Under the pieces are notes generated by a model. The model was not told the origin of the DNA, did not search any database, and worked only from the letters and a program-made list of their open reading frames with translations. Positions 7,811 through 19,665 of a stretch of 49,306 bases of DNA are shown piece by piece (position 1 is the stretch's first letter; each line of letters starts with the position of its first letter). Location: contig JAQUVQ010000016.1 in the NCBI GenBank assembly GCA_028693285.1, forward strand, positions 1 to 49,306, in the 5' to 3' direction. This DNA is from Smithellaceae bacterium. Its GTDB lineage: Bacteria; Desulfobacterota; Syntrophia; Syntrophales; Smithellaceae. A program made the translations under genes and the position numbers.

Positions 7811-9619
7811 TTAATCTTCGAAATACTCGTTTTTCATCTTCACGGTCAGGCCGTCGCTGCTAAGCAGCCGGTCGGACAAGCCCTGAATTTTGGGCAGCTC
7901 GTAGCCGAAGAAGTAGCGGAACGCGGCCAGCTTGCCCTGGTAGAAATTTTCATCAGCTTCGCCCGGACTTTTGGCCAGCGACTTTTTGGCCGCCGTGGCC
8001 TGACGCAGCCACTGCCAGGCGATCGCAATGATGCCGAAGAATTCCAGATAGACCGTGGCGTCGGCCAGAAACATCTCCGGACCTTCCTTGGCGGCCACGC
8101 CGAACTGATGCATCGTTACTTTTTCCAGGAGCGCGACGGACGCGGAAAGCTTTTCGGCAAACGGCTTCAATTCCGCATCGCCTTCGGCGTCCTTGATGGC
8201 CTTGCGCACTTCCGCCAGATACAACTGGGCGGCCTTGCCTTTTTTCATCATCATCTTTCGGCCGAGCAGGTCCATCCCCTGAATGCCGGTTGTGCCTTCA
8301 TGAATCGGGTGGATGCGCACATCGCGGTAAAGCTGTTCAAGGGGAAACTCCTCGCAGAAACCGTAGCCGCCCAGAATCTGCAGGCCCGCGGAGCAGGACA
8401 GGATGCCCATTTCCGAGGGATACGTTTTGGCGACCGGCGTCAGCAGCTCCAGAAGCAGATTATAGTTTTCACGCTCCTCGCCTTCGGTCACATGCTCCAG
8501 GTCCTCATAAATGCCGCACTGGAACAGCAGCGACAGCGACCCTTCCACGACGGCTTTCTGAAACAGGAGCATGCGCCGGATATCCGCGTGCTCAATGATC
8601 GGAATCTGCGGCGACAACGGGTCCTTGGAGGTCAGCTTCCGTCCCTGCGGTCTTTCTTTTGCGTATTCCAGGGAAGCGTAGTAAGCGGCGGACGAAATCA
8701 CGGCCGCGGCCAGACCCACGTCAATGCGGGCGCCGTTCATCATCTGGAACATGTAGGCCAGACCCTTGTTGGCTTCGCCGACCAGCCAGCCGCGGCAGTC
8801 GTCGTTTTCACCGAAGGCAAGCTGGGTGATGGGGGAGCCCCGGTAGCCGAGCTTGTGATAGATGCCCGCGCAGTTGACGTCGTTGGGCTCGAGCGAGCCG
8901 TCATCCTTGATGCGCTTCTTGGGAATGATAAACAGCGAAATGCCCTTGATGCCGGCCGGCGCGTCCTTGAGCCGGACCAGCGCCAGGTGAATCACGTTGT
9001 CGCATCCGTCATGGTCGCCGGCGGAGATGAACAGCTTCTGGCCCTTGATTTTGCAATAGCCCTGATCCGTCGGGGTCGCCGTGGTGGTGAGGTCGGTGAG
9101 CGACGAGCCCGCCTGCGGTTCGGTGAGCGCCATCGTGCCCTGCCATTCGCCCGCGATCATTTTGGGCAGATACGCATCCTTCATTTCCTGAGTGCCGTAG
9201 GAAGCGATCAGGCCCGCCGCGCCGTGCGTCAGACCGTGGTAAACGGCGGCGGAATAGTTGGCCGCACCGAAAATCGCCGTCGGCAGCATCACGCCGATGG
9301 TGAAAGGAAGCTGCTGGCCGCCCAGATCGTAGGGAAAGGTGGAGGCGATCCAGCCGCCGTCACCCGCCGCGCGCATGATCTCGCGGACCCTGGGATGCAC
9401 CCTGACTTCGCCGTTGACATACTCGGGGGCCTTGCGGTCCATTTCCTCAAACAGGGGTTTGAAGAGGTCCTTGCCCATCCGCATCGCGGTGTCCAGAATC
9501 ATGTCGAAGACTTCCCGGCTGTGATCGGCAAAGCGGGAATATTTCAAAAGGGATTCCACGTCGTTGACTTCGTAAAGAAGGAATCTCAAGTTCCGGTCGC
9601 TGATAAATTTTTCTGCCAT
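7811..9619 (-). CDS. Acyl-CoA dehydrogenase with C-terminal extension
   Basis: 602 residues, versus about 380 for the classic family. The extra C-terminal helical part is typical of the long type (FadE5/DmdC-like). It is an FAD enzyme introducing a trans-2 double bond into an acyl-CoA; electrons go to ETF. TEPQAGSS is at 166-173. The catalytic base Glu441 sits in IHEGTTGIQ within the C-terminal ACAD signature. The start has AAAGGAG upstream. It is the last gene of the minus-strand block that contains a thiolase, two AbfD genes, an SDR and an enoate reductase, which supports a role in acid oxidation. Chain length or aromatic specificity is not readable. A terminator separates it from the thiolase. 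Confidence 0.93.
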   Translation of the reverse strand: MAEKFISDRNLRFLLYEVNDVESLLKYSRFADHSREVFDMILDTAMRMGKDLFKPLFEEMDRKAPEYVNGEVRVHPRVREIMRAAGDGGWIASTFPYDLGGQQLPFTIGVMLPTAIFGAANYSAAVYHGLTHGAAGLIASYGTQEMKDAYLPKMIAGEWQGTMALTEPQAGSSLTDLTTTATPTDQGYCKIKGQKLFISAGDHDGCDNVIHLALVRLKDAPAGIKGISLFIIPKKRIKDDGSLEPNDVNCAGIYHKLGYRGSPITQLAFGENDDCRGWLVGEANKGLAYMFQMMNGARIDVGLAAAVISSAAYYASLEYAKERPQGRKLTSKDPLSPQIPIIEHADIRRMLLFQKAVVEGSLSLLFQCGIYEDLEHVTEGEERENYNLLLELLTPVAKTYPSEMGILSCSAGLQILGGYGFCEEFPLEQLYRDVRIHPIHEGTTGIQGMDLLGRKMMMKKGKAAQLYLAEVRKAIKDAEGDAELKPFAEKLSASVALLEKVTMHQFGVAAKEGPEMFLADATVYLEFFGIIAIAWQWLRQATAAKKSLAKSPGEADENFYQGKLAAFRYFFGYELPKIQGLSDRLLSSDGLTVKMKNEYFED

Positions 9620-9756: not shown

Positions 9757-10965
9757 TTAGAACGTCAGGTTTTCCACGATGCAGGCCACGCCCAGGCCGC
9801 CGCCGCAGCAGGAGCTGAAGCAGCCGTACTTGCCTCCCTTGTCCATCAGTTCCCGCATGCAGAAAATGCCGATGCGCGATCCGGAAGCTCCGTTGGGATG
9901 ACCATAGGCAATGGCGCCGCCGTTGGGATTCCATTTTTCCCAGTCAACTTTTTCGCCGGTCTGCTTCTCCAGCTCCGCGGCCACTGCCAGGTTCTGCACG
10001 GCGAAGGCTTCGTTGCATTCCATGACATCCAACTGGCTCATCTTGATGCCGGCGCGCTTCAGCGCCTGGGGCACGGCATAGGCGGGGGCGATCCCCATGA
10101 TCTTGGGATCGACGCCGACATCGCCGCCGGACAGCCATTTGGCCCAGGGCTTGCAGCCCAGTTCTTCGGCCTTTTCCCTGGTCATCATCAGCACGAAAGC
10201 CGCGCCGTCGTTGCGGCCGGAGGCGTTGCCGGCGGTGACGGTTCCTTCTTTCGTAAACGCGGGAGGAAGCTTGGCCAGACCTTCCATCGTCGTCTCTAAA
10301 CGCGGAAATTCGTCCACCTTGAACTCCAGCGGAGGTTTCTTGCCCTGCGGAACCGTGATCGGAACGATGTCGCGCGCGCAGAAGCCGGACTCTATCGCTT
10401 TTTTGGTTCTCATCTGGCTTCGGTAGGCGAATTCATCCTGCGCCTGACGCGGAATGCTGTAGATTTTCTGGAGCGCTTCCGCGGTGAGGCCCATGTTCAT
10501 GGTCGCGGGGTCGCGGGAAGGGGCGAGCGACGGCGCGACCGGCAACGGGGGAATCATGCGGAAGGGCGGCGTGTTCATCGGGAAGCGGGCCGGTGCGCTG
10601 CTGTAAGATTCGTAGCCGCCGGCGATGATGACGTCGGCCTGGCCGGCCAGAATCTTCCAGGCGGCGTGGTTGATCGAATCGATTGCCGAACCGCACTGCA
10701 TTTCAATGTAGGAAGCCGAGGTGCTCTCGGGCAAGCCGGACGCCAGAGCAGGCCAGCGGGCGCCGTTGATGGCCGTGAGCGGTCCGATCGCGGAACCCAT
10801 GAAACAGCAGTCCACCACGCCGCCTTTTTCCAGAATCTTTGATCTTGCCACAAGGCCTTTGATGCACAGGCCCGCCATTTCCTCACCCAGGATGCCGCTC
10901 AGGGTCTTTCCCAGCGTGCCAAACGCCGTTCTCATGCCATCCACAAATACGACTTCTCTGCTCAT
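9757..10965 (-). CDS. Thiolase (acetyl-CoA acetyltransferase family)
   Basis: 402 residues. It cleaves 3-oxoacyl-CoA with CoA, or condenses two acyl-CoAs. The nucleophile Cys91 is in EMQCGSAIDS (the common form is CGSG). NEAF is at 318-321, His356 in YGHPNGASG, and the acid/base Cys386 in SSCCGGGLG. All catalytic positions are present. The start has GAGGAGGGG upstream. It belongs to the block of CoA-linked catabolic genes. Two inverted repeats upstream (10993-11009 and 11097-11112) may be regulator sites. Confidence 0.95.
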   Translation of the reverse strand: MSREVVFVDGMRTAFGTLGKTLSGILGEEMAGLCIKGLVARSKILEKGGVVDCCFMGSAIGPLTAINGARWPALASGLPESTSASYIEMQCGSAIDSINHAAWKILAGQADVIIAGGYESYSSAPARFPMNTPPFRMIPPLPVAPSLAPSRDPATMNMGLTAEALQKIYSIPRQAQDEFAYRSQMRTKKAIESGFCARDIVPITVPQGKKPPLEFKVDEFPRLETTMEGLAKLPPAFTKEGTVTAGNASGRNDGAAFVLMMTREKAEELGCKPWAKWLSGGDVGVDPKIMGIAPAYAVPQALKRAGIKMSQLDVMECNEAFAVQNLAVAAELEKQTGEKVDWEKWNPNGGAIAYGHPNGASGSRIGIFCMRELMDKGGKYGCFSSCCGGGLGVACIVENLTF

Positions 10966-11224: not shown

Positions 11225-11821
11225 TTATTTTATTTTTTGTGCGGTTCCGGCATTTTTGGACATGAAATAGGTATGCTCCTCAAGGGAGATCCATCCGTTT
11301 CGGTTTTTGTCAATCTCCTTGAACCGCCTGGACATGGCCGCCATAAATTCATCCGTGGTAATTTTGCCGTCGTGGTTCGAATCCACGTCGAAAAAATTTG
11401 CCGCCCAGAAAACAACACATTCATCGTCGCCGATTTTACCGTCCCGGTTGACATCCAGTTTTTTCTTTGAAACTGCTTTGACCCTGGCGGGAACCCCGGC
11501 TTTCGGCCCGCACCAGAAGGCCATATATTCCTTGACCACCAGCGAACCGTTCTGATCCTCATCCATGGTTCCGAAAAATTCTTTATTGGCCGCTTCAAAC
11601 TCGGCCGCCGTCAGTTTGCCGTCGCGGTCGATGTCGATGTCTTTAAACCGCCCCTGCCAGAAAGCCGCGTGCTCCGTCACGCTGACAACCGCGTCGCCGT
11701 TGACATCCATCATGGAATTGACCGTCCGGGCCAACACGGGTTTTCGGGATTGAGCCGTCGCCGCACCGGAAACCGTCAACGAAATCATTAACAAAGCGAA
11801 AACCATCCATCCTTTTTTCAT
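11225..11821 (-). CDS. Secreted EF-hand protein with six calcium-binding loops
   Basis: 198 residues. It has an N-terminal signal peptide (MKKGWMVFALLMISL followed by an Ala-rich cleavage region ending near ATAQS). Six EF-hand-type loops follow: DVNGDAVVSVTE, DIDRDGKLTAAE, DEDQNGSLVVKE, DVNRDGKIGDDE, DSNHDGKITTDE and DKNRNGWISLEE. All keep the Asp/Asn ligands, and most keep Gly6 and Glu12. The start at 11821 has GAGGAGG 6 bp upstream; an earlier in-frame codon at 11860 lacks one. It should bind calcium outside the cytoplasm. Its link to the surrounding acyl-CoA genes is unexplained, and it may simply be the last gene of the transcript from the hydrolase. Confidence 0.85.
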   Translation of the reverse strand: MKKGWMVFALLMISLTVSGAATAQSRKPVLARTVNSMMDVNGDAVVSVTEHAAFWQGRFKDIDIDRDGKLTAAEFEAANKEFFGTMDEDQNGSLVVKEYMAFWCGPKAGVPARVKAVSKKKLDVNRDGKIGDDECVVFWAANFFDVDSNHDGKITTDEFMAAMSRRFKEIDKNRNGWISLEEHTYFMSKNAGTAQKIK

Positions 11822-11863
11822 AAAAGCCTCCTCAATAAAATAATGAAACAGCGGGGTCATATT

Positions 11864-12730
11864 CTAACGCTTCGGAATAGTGATCAATTCCTCAATCAGC
11901 GCATTAACCTTTCTGGCTTCTTCATGCTGAATCCAGTGCGAGACACCGGGAAATTTGATGAGCTTTCCCTGTTTGCAGTAGGCCATGCTCTGATCGGCCA
12001 TCTCCGAAAGCATGGCGACATCGTCTTCGCCCCACAGCAAAATCATGGGCATCGCCACGTCAAAGCTTTGCGGCGGCTCGGGCTGCGTCTGAATCATGGC
12101 CCGGTACCAGTTGACCATCGCGGAAAAAGCTCCCGGCTGCGCAAACGCTCTGCGGTACTCTTCCAGTTCTTCAGGCGTAAAGGCGCCGGGGCGGCTCGTG
12201 GTCGAAAGCAAATGCACTGGCCAGGCATAATTATGGGCCGAGCCGAATTTTTCCACCGCGCCGGGCAGTTGAAAATAAAAGATGTACCAGCTCTTCTCCA
12301 TCTGCCGCTGATTGGCAAAGAGATTTCTGGCCATGACCTTGGGATGGGGAACGTTCAAAATGGCCAGTTTTTCAACACGGCTGGGATATTTCAACGCCAC
12401 CCACCACGACACGGACGCTCCCCAGTCGTGGCCGACCAGAAAAACCTGTTTGCGGCCATAGGCGTCGATGAGGCCGATAATGTCCTTGGCCAGTTCATCA
12501 ATGTTATAGGCCGCAACGCCGGCCGGCTTGTCGCTTGCATTGTAGCCGCGCTGATCGGGCGCGACCACCAGGCAGCCCCGGTCGGCAAAATACCCGATCT
12601 GCTTGCGCCAGGCATACCAGAATTCCGGGAAGCCATGGAGAAACAAAATCATCGGACCATCGGAGGGCCCGGATTCCATAACGTGCAGTTTGATGCCGTT
12701 GGTCTCAATGCAACGCTCACGCAAATCCAT
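11864..12730 (-). CDS. Alpha/beta hydrolase, epoxide-hydrolase/dehalogenase type
   Basis: 288 residues. The oxyanion-hole motif HGFPEFWYAW, then DQRGYNASD, and the nucleophile elbow GHDWGAS with Asp in place of Ser are the pattern of soluble epoxide hydrolases and haloalkane dehalogenases, which form an alkyl-enzyme ester through Asp. The catalytic His is in GVSHWIQHEE and the late acid near WGEDD. The HGFPEFW form favours epoxide hydrolase. The start has GGAGAC upstream. It lies downstream of the enoate reductase, separated by a 26-bp palindrome, and 42 bp upstream of the EF-hand gene. Substrate unknown. Confidence 0.85.
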   Translation of the reverse strand: MDLRERCIETNGIKLHVMESGPSDGPMILFLHGFPEFWYAWRKQIGYFADRGCLVVAPDQRGYNASDKPAGVAAYNIDELAKDIIGLIDAYGRKQVFLVGHDWGASVSWWVALKYPSRVEKLAILNVPHPKVMARNLFANQRQMEKSWYIFYFQLPGAVEKFGSAHNYAWPVHLLSTTSRPGAFTPEELEEYRRAFAQPGAFSAMVNWYRAMIQTQPEPPQSFDVAMPMILLWGEDDVAMLSEMADQSMAYCKQGKLIKFPGVSHWIQHEEARKVNALIEELITIPKR

Positions 12731-12903: not shown

Positions 12904-14862
12904 TTAAATCTCCCAGGCGGCTTTCGCCCCCTCCGTCGTCGCTTCGATGATCCTTCTGGGCGCGGCGGCGTCACCCACGACAAAATGACGGATGCCTTTT
13001 TTCGCCAGCATGTCTTTCAGCGCCGTGCGGGGTGTAACGCCGATGGCCACAATCACCTGGGCAACCGGCTCCAATCTTTTTTCCTCTCCCTTGACCTCGA
13101 CCGTCACCGCATTTTCTTCTATCTTTTTCACGCGGGTTCCCAGCATCAGGGCAATGCCGGCCGCCCGAAGGCGCTTGTGCAGCATGTAGCCGTGCGCGGC
13201 CAGCGCCAGAACGGGTGAAGCAGGCAGCATCTCCACGATGGTGATGTTCTTTAAGCCCTTCTCCCGCAGAAAATCGGCGGTTTCCATCCCCACCAGCCCG
13301 CCGCCGATCACCACCGCCGGCTCTTTGGGCTGTACGGTCCCGTCCAGAATCTGCCAGGCGTCGCAAACCACGGATGCGTTGACGCCCTCGGCCGGGCAGG
13401 CGGCTTTGCCGGCGCCGATGGCCAGAATGACGGCATCGGGTTTGCCCGCATCCACCATCTCCTCTGTGACTTCGACGCCTGTCTGGATTTCCACGCCTTT
13501 CTTTTTGCATTTTGCCGTGAGGGTCTGAATGTAGCGGCCGTACACCTCTTTGTGGGGCGCTTTGGCGGCATAGCGGACATTTCCGCCCGTTTCCTTTTCC
13601 TGCTCGAAGAGGGTTACCTGATGACCAAGACGCGCGGCCTCGAAAGCGGCGGTCAGTCCCGCCGGCCCGCCGCCTACCACCCACACCTTGCGGCGGACGG
13701 CCGCCGGACCCGCCGGATACATCAGTTCCTGACCGGTTTGCGGATTGATGGCGCAGCGAATCGGCAGCGCCTCCAGGGAGAGGCGCTCAATGCAGCCCTG
13801 ATTGCAGGCCAGGCACTCCAGCGTGTCCTCGGGATGTCCGGCCTGCGCGTTTTTGAGGAAATCCGGATCGGCCAGATGCTGGCGCGCCACGGCAATCATG
13901 TCCGCGTCGCCGCGGGCGATGACTTCGTCCATGAAATAAGGATCCGTGTAGCGCCCGACGGAAATCACCGGAACGCCCGCGCCCTCTTTCACCCTGCGCG
14001 CCAGGTGGGACTTGAAGCCGGGGGCATATTCGACCGGCGCGCTCGGGTTCGGCGTATCGATGTTCACGGCGGGACTGCCGTGCGTGCCGAAGGAAACATT
14101 GATGATGTCCGCGCCGGCGCTCACCAGATCGGGGAGGATGGCTTCCATGTCGGTGATGGTGTAGCCGTTTTTGATATACTCCTCGCCGGAGATCCGGATC
14201 GACATGGGGAAATCCGGACCGACCTGGCGGCGGACTTCCTCGAGGCATTCGATCATAAAGCGCGCCCGTCCGCGGAAATCGCCTCCGTACTGATCCTTGC
14301 GCTGATTGCTGTGCGCCGAAAGAAACTGCATGAGGAGATAGCCATGCGCTCCGTGAAGCTCAACGGCGTCAAATCCCGCCTTTCGCGCCCGCACGGCCGC
14401 GCTGCCGAAAGCGGCAATGGTTTCCTCGATTTCGGCAAGCGTCATCTCGCGCGGCGTTCCGAGAAAACCGAAGATATAACTGGGGATTGCCGAAGGTGCG
14501 ACAGCCTTGTTTTTCTTCTGCAGCAGGTAGTTCTCGCGGCCCGTATGGTGAAGCTGCATGGCGATTTTGCTTCCCCGCGCATGCACCGCATCGGCAAGCC
14601 TGCTCAGGCCGGGAATGAATTTGTCATCCCAGACGCCGATGCATCGCGGGGAGGCGGAACCCAGCGGGTGCACTTCCGTGATTTCCGTGATGATGAGGCC
14701 GGCGCCGCTCTGCGCCCTGCGTTTGATATAGGCCAGGTTGGCTTCGCTGACGGTGTTGTCGGGATTGCCGAGGGCTGTTCCCATGGGGGGCATGACCAGC
14801 CGGTTGGGAATCGTCAGCGAACGGATGGTGATCGGGGACAACAAATGCTCGAGGGTCTTCAT
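12904..14862 (-). CDS. NADH:flavin oxidoreductase, 2,4-dienoyl-CoA reductase-like (FMN, 4Fe-4S, FAD)
   Basis: 652 residues in the three-part layout of E. coli FadH and trimethylamine dehydrogenase. An old-yellow-enzyme FMN barrel comes first, with ELHGAHGYLL at 168-177. A 4Fe-4S site follows, with Cys350, Cys353, Cys357 and Cys370 (CX2CX3CX12C). The FAD/NAD(P) domains are last, with VVGGGPAGLTAA at 395-406 and a second GGGLVGMETADF. Such enzymes reduce activated C=C bonds of enoyl or dienoyl-CoA, or related electron-poor alkenes. The start has AAGGAG upstream. The SDR ends 17 bp before it on the same strand, so the two are probably co-transcribed. The natural substrate in this pathway is not known. 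Confidence 0.93.
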   Translation of the reverse strand: MKTLEHLLSPITIRSLTIPNRLVMPPMGTALGNPDNTVSEANLAYIKRRAQSGAGLIITEITEVHPLGSASPRCIGVWDDKFIPGLSRLADAVHARGSKIAMQLHHTGRENYLLQKKNKAVAPSAIPSYIFGFLGTPREMTLAEIEETIAAFGSAAVRARKAGFDAVELHGAHGYLLMQFLSAHSNQRKDQYGGDFRGRARFMIECLEEVRRQVGPDFPMSIRISGEEYIKNGYTITDMEAILPDLVSAGADIINVSFGTHGSPAVNIDTPNPSAPVEYAPGFKSHLARRVKEGAGVPVISVGRYTDPYFMDEVIARGDADMIAVARQHLADPDFLKNAQAGHPEDTLECLACNQGCIERLSLEALPIRCAINPQTGQELMYPAGPAAVRRKVWVVGGGPAGLTAAFEAARLGHQVTLFEQEKETGGNVRYAAKAPHKEVYGRYIQTLTAKCKKKGVEIQTGVEVTEEMVDAGKPDAVILAIGAGKAACPAEGVNASVVCDAWQILDGTVQPKEPAVVIGGGLVGMETADFLREKGLKNITIVEMLPASPVLALAAHGYMLHKRLRAAGIALMLGTRVKKIEENAVTVEVKGEEKRLEPVAQVIVAIGVTPRTALKDMLAKKGIRHFVVGDAAAPRRIIEATTEGAKAAWEI

Positions 14863-14879: not shown

Positions 14880-15674
14880 TTAATGCATCCCTAACAGCAA
14901 TCCGCCGTCGATAACGATTTCGGCGCCCGTTGTGTAGTTTGACGCTTCCGAGGCCAGGTAAACGGCGGCTCCGGCGATTTCATCCGGTTCCCCGATCCGG
15001 CAGGTCGGCAGATGCTTGCACATCTCTTCCTTCTGCTTTTTCGCCTCTTCCGGCGGCAGGTGCATCCAGTGGGAATTCATCATCTTTGTGCTGATGGGGC
15101 CGGGACAGATGGAATTGACCTGAATGTTGTCCCTTGCCAGTTCCATGGCGAAGGCCTTGGTGATCATCCGCACACCCGCCTTGGAAATGGAATACACGCT
15201 GACAAACGGCTCCGGCTTGAACCCGTCGATGGAGGCGACGTTGATGATTTTTCCGCCGCCCTGCTTTTTCATGACCCTGGCCGCCGCCTGGCTCATGAAG
15301 TAGGTGCCTTTGAGGTTGAGATTCATCAGCGTATCCCAGAGGCGCTCGTCCGTGTCCAGGACGGAGGCCATGGCGGGGCTGGCGCCGGCGTTGTTGACCA
15401 GAATGTCGATTCGTCCGAATTTCTCCAGAACCGTGTCCACCACCCGATAAACTTCGCCGATTTTGCCCAGATGCGCCGGCACCACCAGCACCTCGCAGCC
15501 GATGGCCGTCATTTCGCAGGCGGTGGCTTCCAGATCCTGCGCCTTTCGGCTGGTAATAACCACTTTGGCCCCTGCTTTGGCGAAACCGTAGGCAATCGCC
15601 TGGCCGATGCCGCGGCTGCCGCCGGTGACAACCGCCACTTTATCCTTTAATGAAAACTGGGAAATATCAAACAT
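14880..15674 (-). CDS. Short-chain dehydrogenase/reductase
   Basis: 264 residues of the classical SDR type. The cofactor motif is TGGSRGIG (17-24), then NNAG. The catalytic residues are Ser148, Tyr161 and Lys165 (YSISK). It would interconvert a hydroxy- and keto-group, plausibly on a 3-hydroxyacyl-CoA given the neighbours. The start at the ATG at 15674 has AAAGGAG 8 bp upstream; an in-frame GTG three codons earlier overlaps that site and is rejected. It lies between AbfD copy 1 (behind a strong terminator) and the enoate reductase. Confidence 0.92.
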   Translation of the reverse strand: MFDISQFSLKDKVAVVTGGSRGIGQAIAYGFAKAGAKVVITSRKAQDLEATACEMTAIGCEVLVVPAHLGKIGEVYRVVDTVLEKFGRIDILVNNAGASPAMASVLDTDERLWDTLMNLNLKGTYFMSQAAARVMKKQGGGKIINVASIDGFKPEPFVSVYSISKAGVRMITKAFAMELARDNIQVNSICPGPISTKMMNSHWMHLPPEEAKKQKEEMCKHLPTCRIGEPDEIAGAAVYLASEASNYTTGAEIVIDGGLLLGMH

Positions 15675-15749
15675 GGCAAACACTCCTTTTTTATGTTGTT
15701 GGATGCGTCAGAAAAGATGCAGCGGAAATTGCAACCCCTTTTGATCAGG

Positions 15750-15809
15750 AAAAATACGGGGCGTCCGCCGCGGGGAACGGTGCGAAGCCGCTCCCCGCAG
15801 GCGACCCCC
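15750..15809 (-). terminator. Strong terminator after AbfD copy 1
   Basis: A long GC-rich hairpin, with inner stem GCGGGGA-GCGG/CCG-TTCCCCGC, a CTTCGCA loop and outer pairs GGGG/CCCC, is followed on the minus strand by TATTTTT. It separates the dehydratase from the SDR-reductase pair. Confidence 0.8.
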
Positions 15810-15822
15810 GCGGGTAAGATGG

Positions 15823-17325
15823 TTATTTCTTGTCCGGTTTGGGCGCAAAAACTTCCCGGTCGCCGCCGCTCATGCCGGCGATGTATTTCACCAGCTTCTT
15901 GCGGGACTCGATATCGTACTGCGTGGTGATGGCAATCTGCTCCATGATCGGAGAGCCGCCGCCGTGATAGTTGCCGACGTTGACAATGCCGCCGGTGGCC
16001 GAACAGAGATGATCGCCCAGGTAGCGCCAGAACTGCGCCTGGTCCTCCGGCGACATCTTCGGATTGCGCTTGGTGTACTTCAGGAGCGCCTCGCCCGTGG
16101 CCGGATTGACGAAATCCTTTTCGTGCGGGAACGTCGCCACGACGCCGCCCGCGATGTCGCACAGAATTTCCGCCTCGCGCCAGACCGCCTCGCCCGACAG
16201 GCAGCGGCCCACGTTGCAGTAAATGGAATTCGGAATGTAGGAGCCGGGACCGTAGGGAACAAATCCAATGCCGGGCATGTAAACCTCCGGTTTGCCCAGG
16301 TCCGAAGCCGTGTAGCCCGCCGCGTAGCCCAGTTCGATCGTCATGATGATTTCGGCCAGTTTCTCACGGACATGGGATTCCTTGTGGACGTTGTTGCATT
16401 CGGCGGCCAGCGCCGCGGTGCCCAAAATGACGTCGCCGATGGCGGGCTTGCAGCCGGAGTAGGAATGACGGTGGAACAGGGCAAACAGCAGCGCCAAAAC
16501 GCCGCCGTGCTGATATTCGCCGGCCAGGAAGACCCTTTCCCACGGCACGAAGCAGTTGTCGAAAATCATGTAGGAATCGGTTGCGCCCGGCATAAACCCG
16601 CGTCTGTAATGCTCCCTCTGCCGCAGATTGTGAATGGTCACCACCTGGGTCAACCCGTCCCAGTCGCCCGGAACGGCAAAGGCCACGGCGTAGTCCTTGT
16701 CTTCCTTGCGCAGCGCTCGGGTGGGCAGCACGAGGACTTCGTCGGCCACGGAGGCTTCCGAAATGTGCAGCTTGCAGCCTTCCACGATGATGCCGTCCTT
16801 GGTTCGCTCCTTGATGCGGACGTACGCCCCGGGGTTGGGCTGATCGGCGGGACGTAGCAGGCGGTCGCCCTTGGTGTCCGTCTGGGCGCAGCATCCAACA
16901 AGGTCCCCGGTCTGGAAGCGGGTCAGCCATTTCTTGAAATTCTCGTGGTAATTCGTCTCGCCCGGCTTTACCTTGTCCGCTTCAAACGATACGTTGTAGA
17001 TGGCGTTGGTGCCGTCAATGCCCATGCACCGCTGAATGCAGCCGCCGACTTTCTGGCAGAGCATCCGGGTCATGTCCTGCTTGCGGTGCAGGTCAACCGT
17101 GCTCTGGTGAATGTGCGTGAAGCGGTTGATCTTCTCCCCGGTCAGGTGAGACGTGGCGGTAAGCAGGTCCGCGTTTTCCGGCTTTTGCGCTTCGTCATAG
17201 GTTGTCCCGATCGTATTGAGGCAATCCATCTGCAGTTCGTCGGTTCGGTCAATTAACTGCCCGTCAAAATAAATGTTCCTCTTCATTTTGGAAAGACCGT
17301 TAATGTAATCCTGCTTGGTTCTCAT
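15823..17325 (-). CDS. abfD: 4-hydroxybutyryl-CoA dehydratase / vinylacetyl-CoA isomerase, copy 1
   Basis: 500 residues. This FAD and 4Fe-4S enzyme performs ketyl-radical dehydration of 4-hydroxybutyryl-CoA to crotonyl-CoA and can isomerise vinylacetyl-CoA. The cluster ligands of the Clostridium aminobutyricum enzyme (Cys99, Cys103, His292, Cys299) correspond to Cys96, Cys100 (CIQRC), His285 and Cys292 (HRHSYSGC), so the active site looks intact. The HpaB-like acyl-CoA-dehydrogenase fold spans the whole length. The start at 17325 has AAAGGATG upstream. It is a tandem paralogue of the next gene upstream, with blocks of perfect DNA identity. A close relative with another hydroxyacyl-CoA substrate cannot be excluded. 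Confidence 0.93.
   Translation of the reverse strand: MRTKQDYINGLSKMKRNIYFDGQLIDRTDELQMDCLNTIGTTYDEAQKPENADLLTATSHLTGEKINRFTHIHQSTVDLHRKQDMTRMLCQKVGGCIQRCMGIDGTNAIYNVSFEADKVKPGETNYHENFKKWLTRFQTGDLVGCCAQTDTKGDRLLRPADQPNPGAYVRIKERTKDGIIVEGCKLHISEASVADEVLVLPTRALRKEDKDYAVAFAVPGDWDGLTQVVTIHNLRQREHYRRGFMPGATDSYMIFDNCFVPWERVFLAGEYQHGGVLALLFALFHRHSYSGCKPAIGDVILGTAALAAECNNVHKESHVREKLAEIIMTIELGYAAGYTASDLGKPEVYMPGIGFVPYGPGSYIPNSIYCNVGRCLSGEAVWREAEILCDIAGGVVATFPHEKDFVNPATGEALLKYTKRNPKMSPEDQAQFWRYLGDHLCSATGGIVNVGNYHGGGSPIMEQIAITTQYDIESRKKLVKYIAGMSGGDREVFAPKPDKK
16911..17160 (-). repeat. 250-bp tract identical to 18482-18731
   Basis: Every base matches the paralogous gene at a constant offset of 1571, while flanking coding sequence differs at many positions. 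The tract covers codons 56-138, including the two cluster cysteines. Further matching tracts are 16124-16229 (106 bp, perfect) and 16351-16496 (146 bp, one mismatch). Confidence 0.9.
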
Positions 17326-17350
17326 GGCGTCATCCTTTCTGTTGAAATGA

Positions 17351-17384
17351 TATAAAAAGGGGCCTCGGCCGTCAGGCCCCTTTT
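17351..17384 (-). terminator. Terminator between the two AbfD genes
   Basis: An 11-bp perfect stem (AAAAGGGGCCT with AGGCCCCTTTT) with an 8-nt loop runs into T residues on the minus strand. It lies 12 bp after the stop of copy 2 and 26 bp before the start of copy 1, so it may work as partial attenuation between them. Confidence 0.85.
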
Positions 17385-17396
17385 GGTCAGTCCATG

Positions 17397-18896
17397 TTAC
17401 TTCTTGACTTTCGGCGCCAGGGCTTCACGGTCGCCGCCGCTCATGCCGGCGATGTATTTCACCAGCTTCTTGCGGGAATTGATGTCGTACTGCGTCGTGA
17501 TGGCAATCTGCTCCATGATCGGAGAGCCGCCGCCGTGGTAGTTGCCGACGTTGGCGATGCCGCCCGTGGCCGAACACATCGAATCGCCCAGGTAGCGCCA
17601 GAACTGCGCCTGATCCTCGGCGGACATCTTCGGATTGCGCTTGGTGTACTTCAGGAGCGCCTCGCCCGTGGCCGGATTGGTAAAATCTTTCTCATGCGGG
17701 AACGTCGCCACGACGCCGCCCGCGATGTCGCACAGAATTTCCGCCTCGCGCCAGACCGCCTCGCCCGACAGGCAGCGGCCCACGTTGCAGTAAATGGAAT
17801 GGGGAATATAGGAGCCGGGGCCAAACGGCACAAAACCCATTCCGGGAATATAGACTTCCGGCTTGCCCAGATCGGAGGCGGTGTAGCCGGCGGCATATCC
17901 CAGTTCAATCGTCATGATCAGTTCGGCCAGTTTCTCACGGACATGGGATTCCTTGTGGACGTTGTTGCATTCGGCGGCCAGCGCCGCGGTGCCCAAAATA
18001 ACGTCGCCGATGGCGGGCTTGCAGCCGGAGTAGGAATGACGGTGGAACAGGGCAAACAGCAGCGCCAGGATCCCGCCGTGCAGATTCTCGCCGGCCAGGA
18101 AGACTCTCTCCCAGGGCACGAAACAGTCTTCAAAAATCAGGTACGAATCGGTCAGCCCCGGCGTGAAGCCCCGTTTGAAATGTTCGCGCTGGCGGTAGTT
18201 ATGAATGGTCACCACCTGCTTCATGCCGTCATAATCCGCGGGCACGGCAAAACCCACCGCGTAGTCCTTGTCTTCGGGACGAAGCGCGCGGGTGGGAATC
18301 ACCAGCACTTCATCGGAGACGGAGGCTTCGGAAATGTGCACCTTGCAGCCTTCGACCACGATGCCGTCCTTCAGGCGTTCCTTGATGCGCACATAGGCGC
18401 CCGGATTGGGCTGTTCGGCCGGCCGCAGCATGCGGTCGCCCTTGGTATCCGTCTGGGCGCAGGCGGCAATCATATCTTCCTTCTGGAAGCGGGTCAGCCA
18501 TTTCTTGAAATTCTCGTGGTAATTCGTCTCGCCCGGCTTTACCTTGTCCGCTTCAAACGATACGTTGTAGATGGCGTTGGTGCCGTCAATGCCCATGCAC
18601 CGCTGAATGCAGCCGCCGACTTTCTGGCAGAGCATCCGGGTCATGTCCTGCTTGCGGTGCAGGTCAACCGTGCTCTGGTGAATGTGCGTGAAGCGGTTGA
18701 TCTTCTCCCCGGTCAGGTGAGACGTGGCGGTCATCAGCGTTTCGTTCTCCGGCTTGGCGGCCTCATCATACGTTGTGCCCATAACGTTGATGCAGTCGCT
18801 TTGCAGCTCGTCGGTCCGGTCGATCAGCTGCCCGTCATAATAGACGTTGCGTTTCATTTTCGACAGGGCGTTGATAAAATCTTGCTTGGTTCTCAT
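17397..18896 (-). CDS. abfD: 4-hydroxybutyryl-CoA dehydratase / vinylacetyl-CoA isomerase, copy 2
   Basis: 499 residues, aligning end to end without gaps to copy 1. It keeps Cys96, Cys100, His285 and Cys292 as 4Fe-4S ligands. Differences cluster at residues 139-275 (for example KEDMIAA versus TGDLVGC near 140), the region that could tune substrate choice. The start at 18896 has AAAGGAG upstream; the open frame extends further but enters the TetR gene. Only 31 bp separate it from the TetR stop, so the regulator and this gene are very probably one transcript under the autoregulated promoter at 19693-19721. A terminator follows. Confidence 0.93.
   Translation of the reverse strand: MRTKQDFINALSKMKRNVYYDGQLIDRTDELQSDCINVMGTTYDEAAKPENETLMTATSHLTGEKINRFTHIHQSTVDLHRKQDMTRMLCQKVGGCIQRCMGIDGTNAIYNVSFEADKVKPGETNYHENFKKWLTRFQKEDMIAACAQTDTKGDRMLRPAEQPNPGAYVRIKERLKDGIVVEGCKVHISEASVSDEVLVIPTRALRPEDKDYAVGFAVPADYDGMKQVVTIHNYRQREHFKRGFTPGLTDSYLIFEDCFVPWERVFLAGENLHGGILALLFALFHRHSYSGCKPAIGDVILGTAALAAECNNVHKESHVREKLAELIMTIELGYAAGYTASDLGKPEVYIPGMGFVPFGPGSYIPHSIYCNVGRCLSGEAVWREAEILCDIAGGVVATFPHEKDFTNPATGEALLKYTKRNPKMSAEDQAQFWRYLGDSMCSATGGIANVGNYHGGGSPIMEQIAITTQYDINSRKKLVKYIAGMSGGDREALAPKVKK
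18482..18731 (-). repeat. 250-bp tract identical to 16911-17160
   Basis: This is the partner copy of the identity tract in AbfD copy 1. The companion tracts are 17695-17800 and 17922-18067. The patchwork of perfect and diverged segments is what recent gene conversion would leave. Confidence 0.9.
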
Positions 18897-18927: not shown

Positions 18928-19665
18928 TTAGTTGTTTTCTCTGATTTTGCCGGAAGCGTCCGCACCCTCCGCCTTCGATTGCAGCGCCGGATCGTTTTGC
19001 AGCGTCTGCAGAAGAGAGCGGGCATCCTCCATGTTCAAATGCAGCGTAAGCCCCTGCTGATCCTTTTTCGCCCGGATGCCGTTCAAAACGATTTCCAGAA
19101 ACGGATCCAGCATCTCCATAATGGTTTTTTCGCGCCGGGGCATTCCCAGCATGTGCCAGTGGATAAACAGATGCTCGATGGTGCCCATCAGGATCGAGCG
19201 GATCAGGTAGGCGTCGGCGTCGGGACGGAACGTGCCGTTGGCGATCCCTTCGCGAATGCATTCGAGCAGGCGGTGGGCGGAACGGCGAATGGCCGCATGC
19301 GCGGCGGTCTGCCGGAAGCGCTTGTTGGACATCAACTGCAGCAGCACCAGCGCGGAGTAATGCGGATTGCTCTCGTAGAGCTGAATGTAGCTGAGCATGA
19401 TGGCGCGCATTCGGCCTTCCACATCTTTGATAAAGGGCAGGACGGCTTCGGATTCTTCATACGTATCGTTGGAGATTTTTTCGGGAATGGCAAAGAGCAG
19501 ATCTTCCTTGGTGCCGAAATATTCATAAATCGTCGCCTCGGAAACACCGGCTTCCTTGCTGATTTCGGATATCGTTGCCTCCTGAAAACTTTTTTCGGCA
19601 AAAATCCGCAAAGCCGCATCCATGATGCGGTTCTTCCTGGTCTTCGCACGAACGTGATCGGCCAT
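18928..19665 (-). CDS. TetR-family transcriptional regulator
   Basis: 245 residues. The N-terminal TetR helix-turn-helix spans about residues 10-56: IMDAALRIFAE, then ATISEISKEAGVSEATIYEYF, in two parts a standard TetR_N. The C-terminal ligand domain is helical with no diagnostic motif, and it ends in a longer-than-usual tail rich in charged residues. The start has AAAAGGA upstream. The gene leads into AbfD copy 2 after 31 bp. Its own promoter overlaps palindromic sites, so it likely represses itself and the dehydratase until an acyl-CoA or related ligand binds. The ligand is inferred from the neighbours only. Confidence 0.92.
   Translation of the reverse strand: MADHVRAKTRKNRIMDAALRIFAEKSFQEATISEISKEAGVSEATIYEYFGTKEDLLFAIPEKISNDTYEESEAVLPFIKDVEGRMRAIMLSYIQLYESNPHYSALVLLQLMSNKRFRQTAAHAAIRRSAHRLLECIREGIANGTFRPDADAYLIRSILMGTIEHLFIHWHMLGMPRREKTIMEMLDPFLEIVLNGIRAKKDQQGLTLHLNMEDARSLLQTLQNDPALQSKAEGADASGKIRENN

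Follow-up and report, generated by a model that had tools for sequence, protein, structure and literature searches.

How do two adjacent copies of a gene come to be identical to the base in some stretches and deeply divergent in others, and what would this patchwork mean for the enzymes that they encode? The question is raised by a tandem gene pair in the window, by which we mean the whole 49,306-nucleotide stretch of Smithellaceae DNA analyzed here: an upstream copy, B, and a downstream copy, A, both on the minus strand in the order B-A and separated by 71 bp (Table 1). The two genes differ at 203 of 1497 aligned bases, and their proteins (500 residues for A, 499 for B) share 442 identical residues. 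Realignment reproduced the original prediction to the base: a constant offset of 1571 with zero indels, perfect identity over 250 bp and over 106 bp, and a 146-bp stretch composed of two identical runs (16351-16428 and 16430-16496) flanking a single mismatch at 16429. Additional identical runs cover 57 bp (16052-16108) and 50 bp (15857-15906), and the longest run was matched in 0 of 20,000 shuffles.

Table 1. The dehydratase-like gene pair, its tracts and its genomic neighborhood, in window positions.
Feature	Positions	Strand	Description	Basis
TetR/FadR-like regulator	18928..19665	(-)	adjacent upstream of the pair, conserved in cluster	
Gene B, upstream copy	17397..18896	(-)	499 aa counted from the Met matching gene A; probably the derived residue type	ORF; PDB 1u8v E=1.7e-86
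Divergent N-terminal region in B	18732..18896	(-)		dS; fixed A/B residues
Conversion tract 1 in B	18482..18731	(-)	identical to A; likely donor side	
Divergent middle-domain region in B	18068..18481	(-)		dS; fixed A/B residues
Conversion tract 2 in B	17922..18067	(-)		dS; tree
Conversion tract 3 in B	17695..17800	(-)		identical run, dS
Terminator-like hairpin between B and A	17355..17384	(-)	stem kept with compensatory changes in other tandem pairs	
Gene A, downstream copy	15823..17325	(-)	500 aa, 4-hydroxybutyryl-CoA dehydratase-like (HpaB fold), majority residue type	ORF; Pfam HpaB_N/HpaB; PDB 1u8v E=2.9e-91
Divergent N-terminal region in A	17161..17325	(-)	codons 1-55	7 fixed A/B differences
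Conversion tract 1 in A	16911..17160	(-)	codons 56-138, holds Cys96 and Cys100	identical to B, dS=0; tree
Divergent middle-domain region in A	16497..16910	(-)	codons 139-276	13 fixed A/B differences
Conversion tract 2 in A	16351..16496	(-)	codons 277-325, holds His285 and Cys292, one mismatch	dS; separate A clade (p=0.040) and B clade (p=0.008) rejected
Conversion tract 3 in A	16124..16229	(-)	codons 366-401	identical run, dS
SDR oxidoreductase	14880..15683	(-)	adjacent downstream of the pair, conserved in cluster	
OYE/BaiCD-like (BaiCD/FadH-like) Fe-S flavin ene-reductase	12904..14862	(-)	conserved in cluster	
Alpha/beta hydrolase	11864..12730	(-)	conserved in cluster	
Thiolase	9757..10965	(-)	conserved in cluster, several genomes	
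Acyl-CoA dehydrogenase	7811..9619	(-)	conserved in cluster, several genomes	

Synonymous divergence along the two genes is far from uniform. Between the window copies, dS is 0 in tract 1, 0.06 in tract 2 and 0.04 in tract 3, versus 1.0 in codons 139-275, 2.05 in codons 326-365 and saturation in codons 1-55, with an intermediate 0.32 in the 3' part. Synonymous differences fall in 98 of the 429 informative codons, and a difference-free run as long as the longest one, 81 codons, arose in 0 of 100,000 shuffles. The same test is significant for the orthologous pair in G012 (95 of 20,000 shuffles) and not significant for that in G005, two genomes of the same genus, and for more distant tandem pairs it is weak or not significant.

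Among named relatives, those closest to the pair come from metagenome assemblies of Smithella and other Syntrophales; at 79-85% identity, family members also occur in assemblies of Desulfatitalea, Dehalococcoidia and Actinomycetota. In G005 and G012 the orthologous pair keeps the B-A order behind the same TetR gene, with B and A 98% and 93% identical to the window copies in G005 (L136) and 95% and 94% in G012 (L138/L137). Sliding A/B identity drops to 70-80% in codons 1-55 and 139-275 in all three genomes and climbs around codons 56-138; around codons 277-325 it climbs in the window and in G012. G012 carries its own homogenization, its copies being 98% identical in tract 1, 96% in tract 2 and 97% in the tail, and G005 retains an older, non-identical state of tract 1 (91%); the N-terminal flank, by comparison, is at 73-75%.

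Trees separate these regions by history: the divergent parts follow orthology, and the tracts follow genome or lineage. Trees of the divergent parts place the A copies with the lone A gene of G011 and the B copies with the single-copy B genes of G019 and G020. Forcing the two window copies together is rejected there (AU p=7.6e-5, a cost of 135 log-likelihood units), as is forcing all six copies together (p=3.3e-6); a constraint that unites the three A copies, or the three B copies, is not rejected, as expected (p 0.32 and 0.25). The tract 1 tree instead places the six copies and the single B gene of G019 in one clade (95/93), with the A gene of G011 outside; in the tract 2 tree the window copies are sisters (97/88) and separate A and B clades are rejected; and in the tail tree the two G012 copies pair with each other (100/90). 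Since the groupings differ between tract 1, tract 2 and the tail, conversion must have occurred more than once, in three genomes that are related and share part of their history and so are not fully independent replicates. Other, older tandem pairs in the same operon slot (L135 8916-12011 in G021; L037 6001-9096 in UBA5764; L134 9804-12856 in G006) have no strong conversion tract. A further tandem pair, in G008 (L140, G008:C5, 7479-10142), has internal deletions, in codons 116-142 and 402-435 of the first copy and 126-181 of the second; these are either decaying genes or an assembly problem.

Both copies are HpaB-fold proteins (Pfam HpaB_N and HpaB) whose best solved relative is the 4-hydroxybutyryl-CoA dehydratase AbfD (PDB 1u8v), and the [4Fe-4S] ligands (two Cys, a His and a Cys) together with Tyr296, Lys300 and Gln101 are invariant in 51 copies. 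The original name of 4-hydroxybutyryl-CoA dehydratase holds at the level of family, by fold and cluster ligands, but not beyond it: in both window copies Glu257 is replaced by Asp, Glu455 by Gly and Thr190 by Ser, and position 455 is Gly (once Ala) in every copy that covers it. We take all three to be active-site residues that matter for catalysis in AbfD. A canonical homologue that keeps them lies on contig C61 of the same genome and scores 777 bits against 1u8v, versus 310 bits for gene A. Judged by these residues, the pair should rather be called 4-hydroxybutyryl-CoA dehydratase-like. A search of the literature available to us for this enzyme family in Smithella found nothing.

Cys96 and Cys100, which had been placed in the longest tract, are indeed within the 250-bp tract, and the remaining cluster ligands, His285 and Cys292 (His292 and Cys299 in AbfD), sit in the 146-bp tract. 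Breakpoints at about codons 138 and 277 fall near the limits of the middle domain, and Pfam splits the protein at 267/278. A predicted structure from a shallow alignment (pLDDT 36), which we do not count as evidence, has no helices at about 140-262, in agreement with a middle beta domain. At the level of sequence, recurrent ectopic conversion has demonstrably overwritten the N-terminal-domain segment with Cys96 and Cys100 and the beginning of the C-terminal domain, where His285 and Cys292 lie, and codons 1-55 and 139-275 have remained divergent, with type-specific residues, in three genomes. The patchwork first proposed, in which gene conversion keeps the cluster-binding core uniform and the region at residues 139-275 diverges, is strongly supported and seen in all three. 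Residues fixed between the types number 22, with 7 in codons 1-55, 13 in codons 139-275, the others at 358 and 497, and none in the tracts; several are close to where Glu257 sits in AbfD. At most positions, type A carries the residue that most other copies have, so type B is probably derived and type A is near the consensus of the family. Within each type, orthologues show a low dN/dS (in codons 139-275, dS is 0.77 and dN 0.044 between the B copies of G005 and G012), and both types are evidently under purifying selection.

The reading toward which we lean is that A and B are two older paralogues from a distinct subfamily of 4-hydroxybutyryl-CoA dehydratase-like enzymes, placed in tandem in a fatty-acyl-CoA operon of Smithella-type syntrophs, and that they undergo recurrent ectopic conversion, their divergence being kept by selection, with a shared radical core and different acyl-CoA pockets. 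Selection would purge conversions that cross the middle domain, as expected if the enzymes use the same [4Fe-4S]/FAD radical core but differ in their pockets, and A and B would work as two homo-oligomers in one pathway. That they are two dehydratases with different substrates is plausible, given that 20 of the 22 fixed differences lie in codons 1-55 and 139-275.

The divergent parts may instead simply be too unlike to recombine, rather than being protected by selection. In that case, which we consider less probable but take seriously, recombination would need long near-identical stretches, the conserved cluster-binding segments would be converted while the divergent parts escape, and A and B would be redundant dosage copies. 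The tracts do coincide with strongly conserved protein segments, and operons with B only or A only are viable; since either copy alone suffices in other genomes, the functional difference between A and B cannot be essential. Against mere redundancy, in codons 1-55 and 139-275 the residues of type B are fixed across five genomes and those of type A across six, and purifying selection acts on both types.

The original prediction also offered a heteromer of A and B held together by recombination, and here the other genomes weaken the case. A uniform core and the tandem order kept in three genomes would fit a hetero-oligomer, but the G019 assembly, with a completeness of about 100%, contains just one gene from the whole family, of type B, in the same slot; in G020, G013 and G014 that slot holds one gene that the tree puts on the B side, and in G011 only A. 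These B-only and A-only slots make an obligate heteromer unlikely. The hairpin between B and A points the same way, as it suggests unequal dosage: all seven of the tandem pairs that we compared have it, and 5 of its 11 base pairs show double compensatory changes; the conserved hairpin probably makes the dose of A differ from that of B, although our terminator scan as a whole gave no excess over its shuffles. Taken together, we consider a hetero-oligomer improbable. The gap between A and the SDR gene (15684-15822) also folds strongly, and so do its counterparts in L151 and L139, whose sequences look unrelated.

Still less probable is an assembly artifact in which reads of one copy were placed in both to produce the identical tracts. 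The genome is a fragmented draft of 95 contigs, 250 bp exceeds a typical short read, and the contigs of G005 (which ends inside A at codon 367) and G012 (broken within B, codons 367-417) break inside the repeat. Breaks at or beside tract 3 are expected from a genuine repeat, and the same segments are homogenized yet non-identical in G012 and G005; this argues against an artifact, which should not create such older, partly diverged tracts. Finally, extreme DNA or codon constraint without conversion, suggested by the conserved protein segments that the tracts encode, is virtually excluded and was rejected, because synonymous sites in tract 1 are free to change between orthologues there (dS 0.83 between window A and the A gene of G011, 1.30 between window B and the B gene of G020).

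The direction of conversion can be read in part. Tract 1 of window A is 95% identical to B of G005 and 91% to its A, and 6 of 8 informative sites are B-like; B is most likely the donor. For tract 2 the signals conflict, the sequence being closer to A of G005 yet B-like at 5 of 7 informative sites, and tract 3 is uninformative on direction. The unconverted part of window A is itself distant from its orthologues in G005 and G012 (dS 0.70-0.75), and the window SDR gene is at dS 0.98 from that of G012, compared with 0.3-0.5 for most other cluster genes (the thiolase, at 0.78, and an EF-hand gene, at 1.17, being further exceptions) and 0.20 between the window and G005 B copies. The A-SDR block (14880-17325) may have been replaced by the allele of a more distant Smithella lineage.

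The neighboring genes suggest a setting for two such enzymes. The cluster order recurs in many Smithella-type genomes, with the slot between the TetR and SDR genes filled by B, by A or by two copies, and the gene set would be consistent with an acyl-CoA degradation pathway for substrates with an oxygen or unsaturation at the gamma position. In such a pathway a dienoyl- or enone-type acyl group would be the substrate of the ene-reductase for reduction, and A and B would serve as 4-hydroxyacyl dehydratase or 3,2-enoyl isomerase. Inside the cluster, a gene at 11225-11860 encodes the 211-residue EF-hand protein; G012 has a diverged homologue (62%) at the corresponding site, and in G011 a homologue (70%) lies further downstream.

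Conversion limited to one region, with protected divergent regions elsewhere, is already established, and the A/B pair is an added case. In mammalian TLR1/TLR6 (PMC2077338), as here, tandem paralogues undergo recurrent, region-confined conversion in many species while another region diverges, but those are eukaryotic receptors with one large tract, and these are bacterial radical enzymes with several tracts that include the cluster ligands. Bacterial RF1/RF2 (PMC4530459) similarly show conversion limited to a shared-function domain, with specificity domains spared and no fixed direction; they are ancient paralogues with two cases, compared with tandem copies and recent exact identity here. Recurrent conversion of bacterial duplicates is likewise the subject of a study of long-lasting concerted evolution in prokaryotes (PMC6053082), which found 26 genes and does not mention hydroxybutyryl in its text. 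Among dehydratases, A and B share with AbfD the HpaB fold, the ligands Cys99/Cys103/His292/Cys299, and Tyr296, Lys300 and Gln101, but are only about 40% identical to the canonical homologue of this genome, which lies in a different operon. Metallosphaera has two 4-hydroxybutyryl-CoA dehydratase annotations in one genome, Msed_1220 and Msed_1321, one of them used for the reaction; by locus number they are no tandem pair, and the portion of that source consulted does not report conversion (PMC7078158).

The pair is a clean bacterial case, seen in three genomes, of conversion that holds the radical-enzyme core of two paralogues in common and leaves the rest distinct. Conversion here amounts to natural domain swaps, and A/B chimeras would be a direct test of whether substrate choice is set by codons 1-55 and 139-276. 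The locus also flags an uncharacterized and widely distributed enzyme subfamily (about 79-90% identity in Desulfobacterota, Chloroflexota and Actinomycetota assemblies) without the two glutamates of the textbook enzyme.

A link to Smithella metabolism is more speculative. Propionate dismutation in Smithella is described as proceeding through condensation, methyl rearrangement, oxygen transfer to C3 and 3-ketohexanoate cleavage (PMC10180298), and gamma-to-beta oxygen transposition is a chemistry open to this enzyme family: a 4-hydroxyacyl-CoA dehydratase/isomerase would take 4-oxohexanoyl-CoA, reduced to 4-hydroxyhexanoyl-CoA, to hexenoyl-CoA, toward 3-ketohexanoyl-CoA. It is conceivable, if doubtful, that the family supplies the oxygen transfer step, with the canonical C61 gene the likelier catalyst, the middle domains of A and B specialized for other acyl chains and their core kept uniform by conversion. 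On that contig, L154 (G000:C61, 9172-15095) holds a thiolase, the canonical dehydratase and a 949-residue fusion of aldehyde:ferredoxin oxidoreductase and iron alcohol dehydrogenase, and a fusion of this type directly adjoins a dehydratase-family gene in several other Smithella genomes. The genome also contains two methylmalonyl-CoA-mutase-type genes (L159 294-3447 and L160 2220-4352), one of them beside a MeaB GTPase, which possibly serve the rearrangement step of propionate dismutation.
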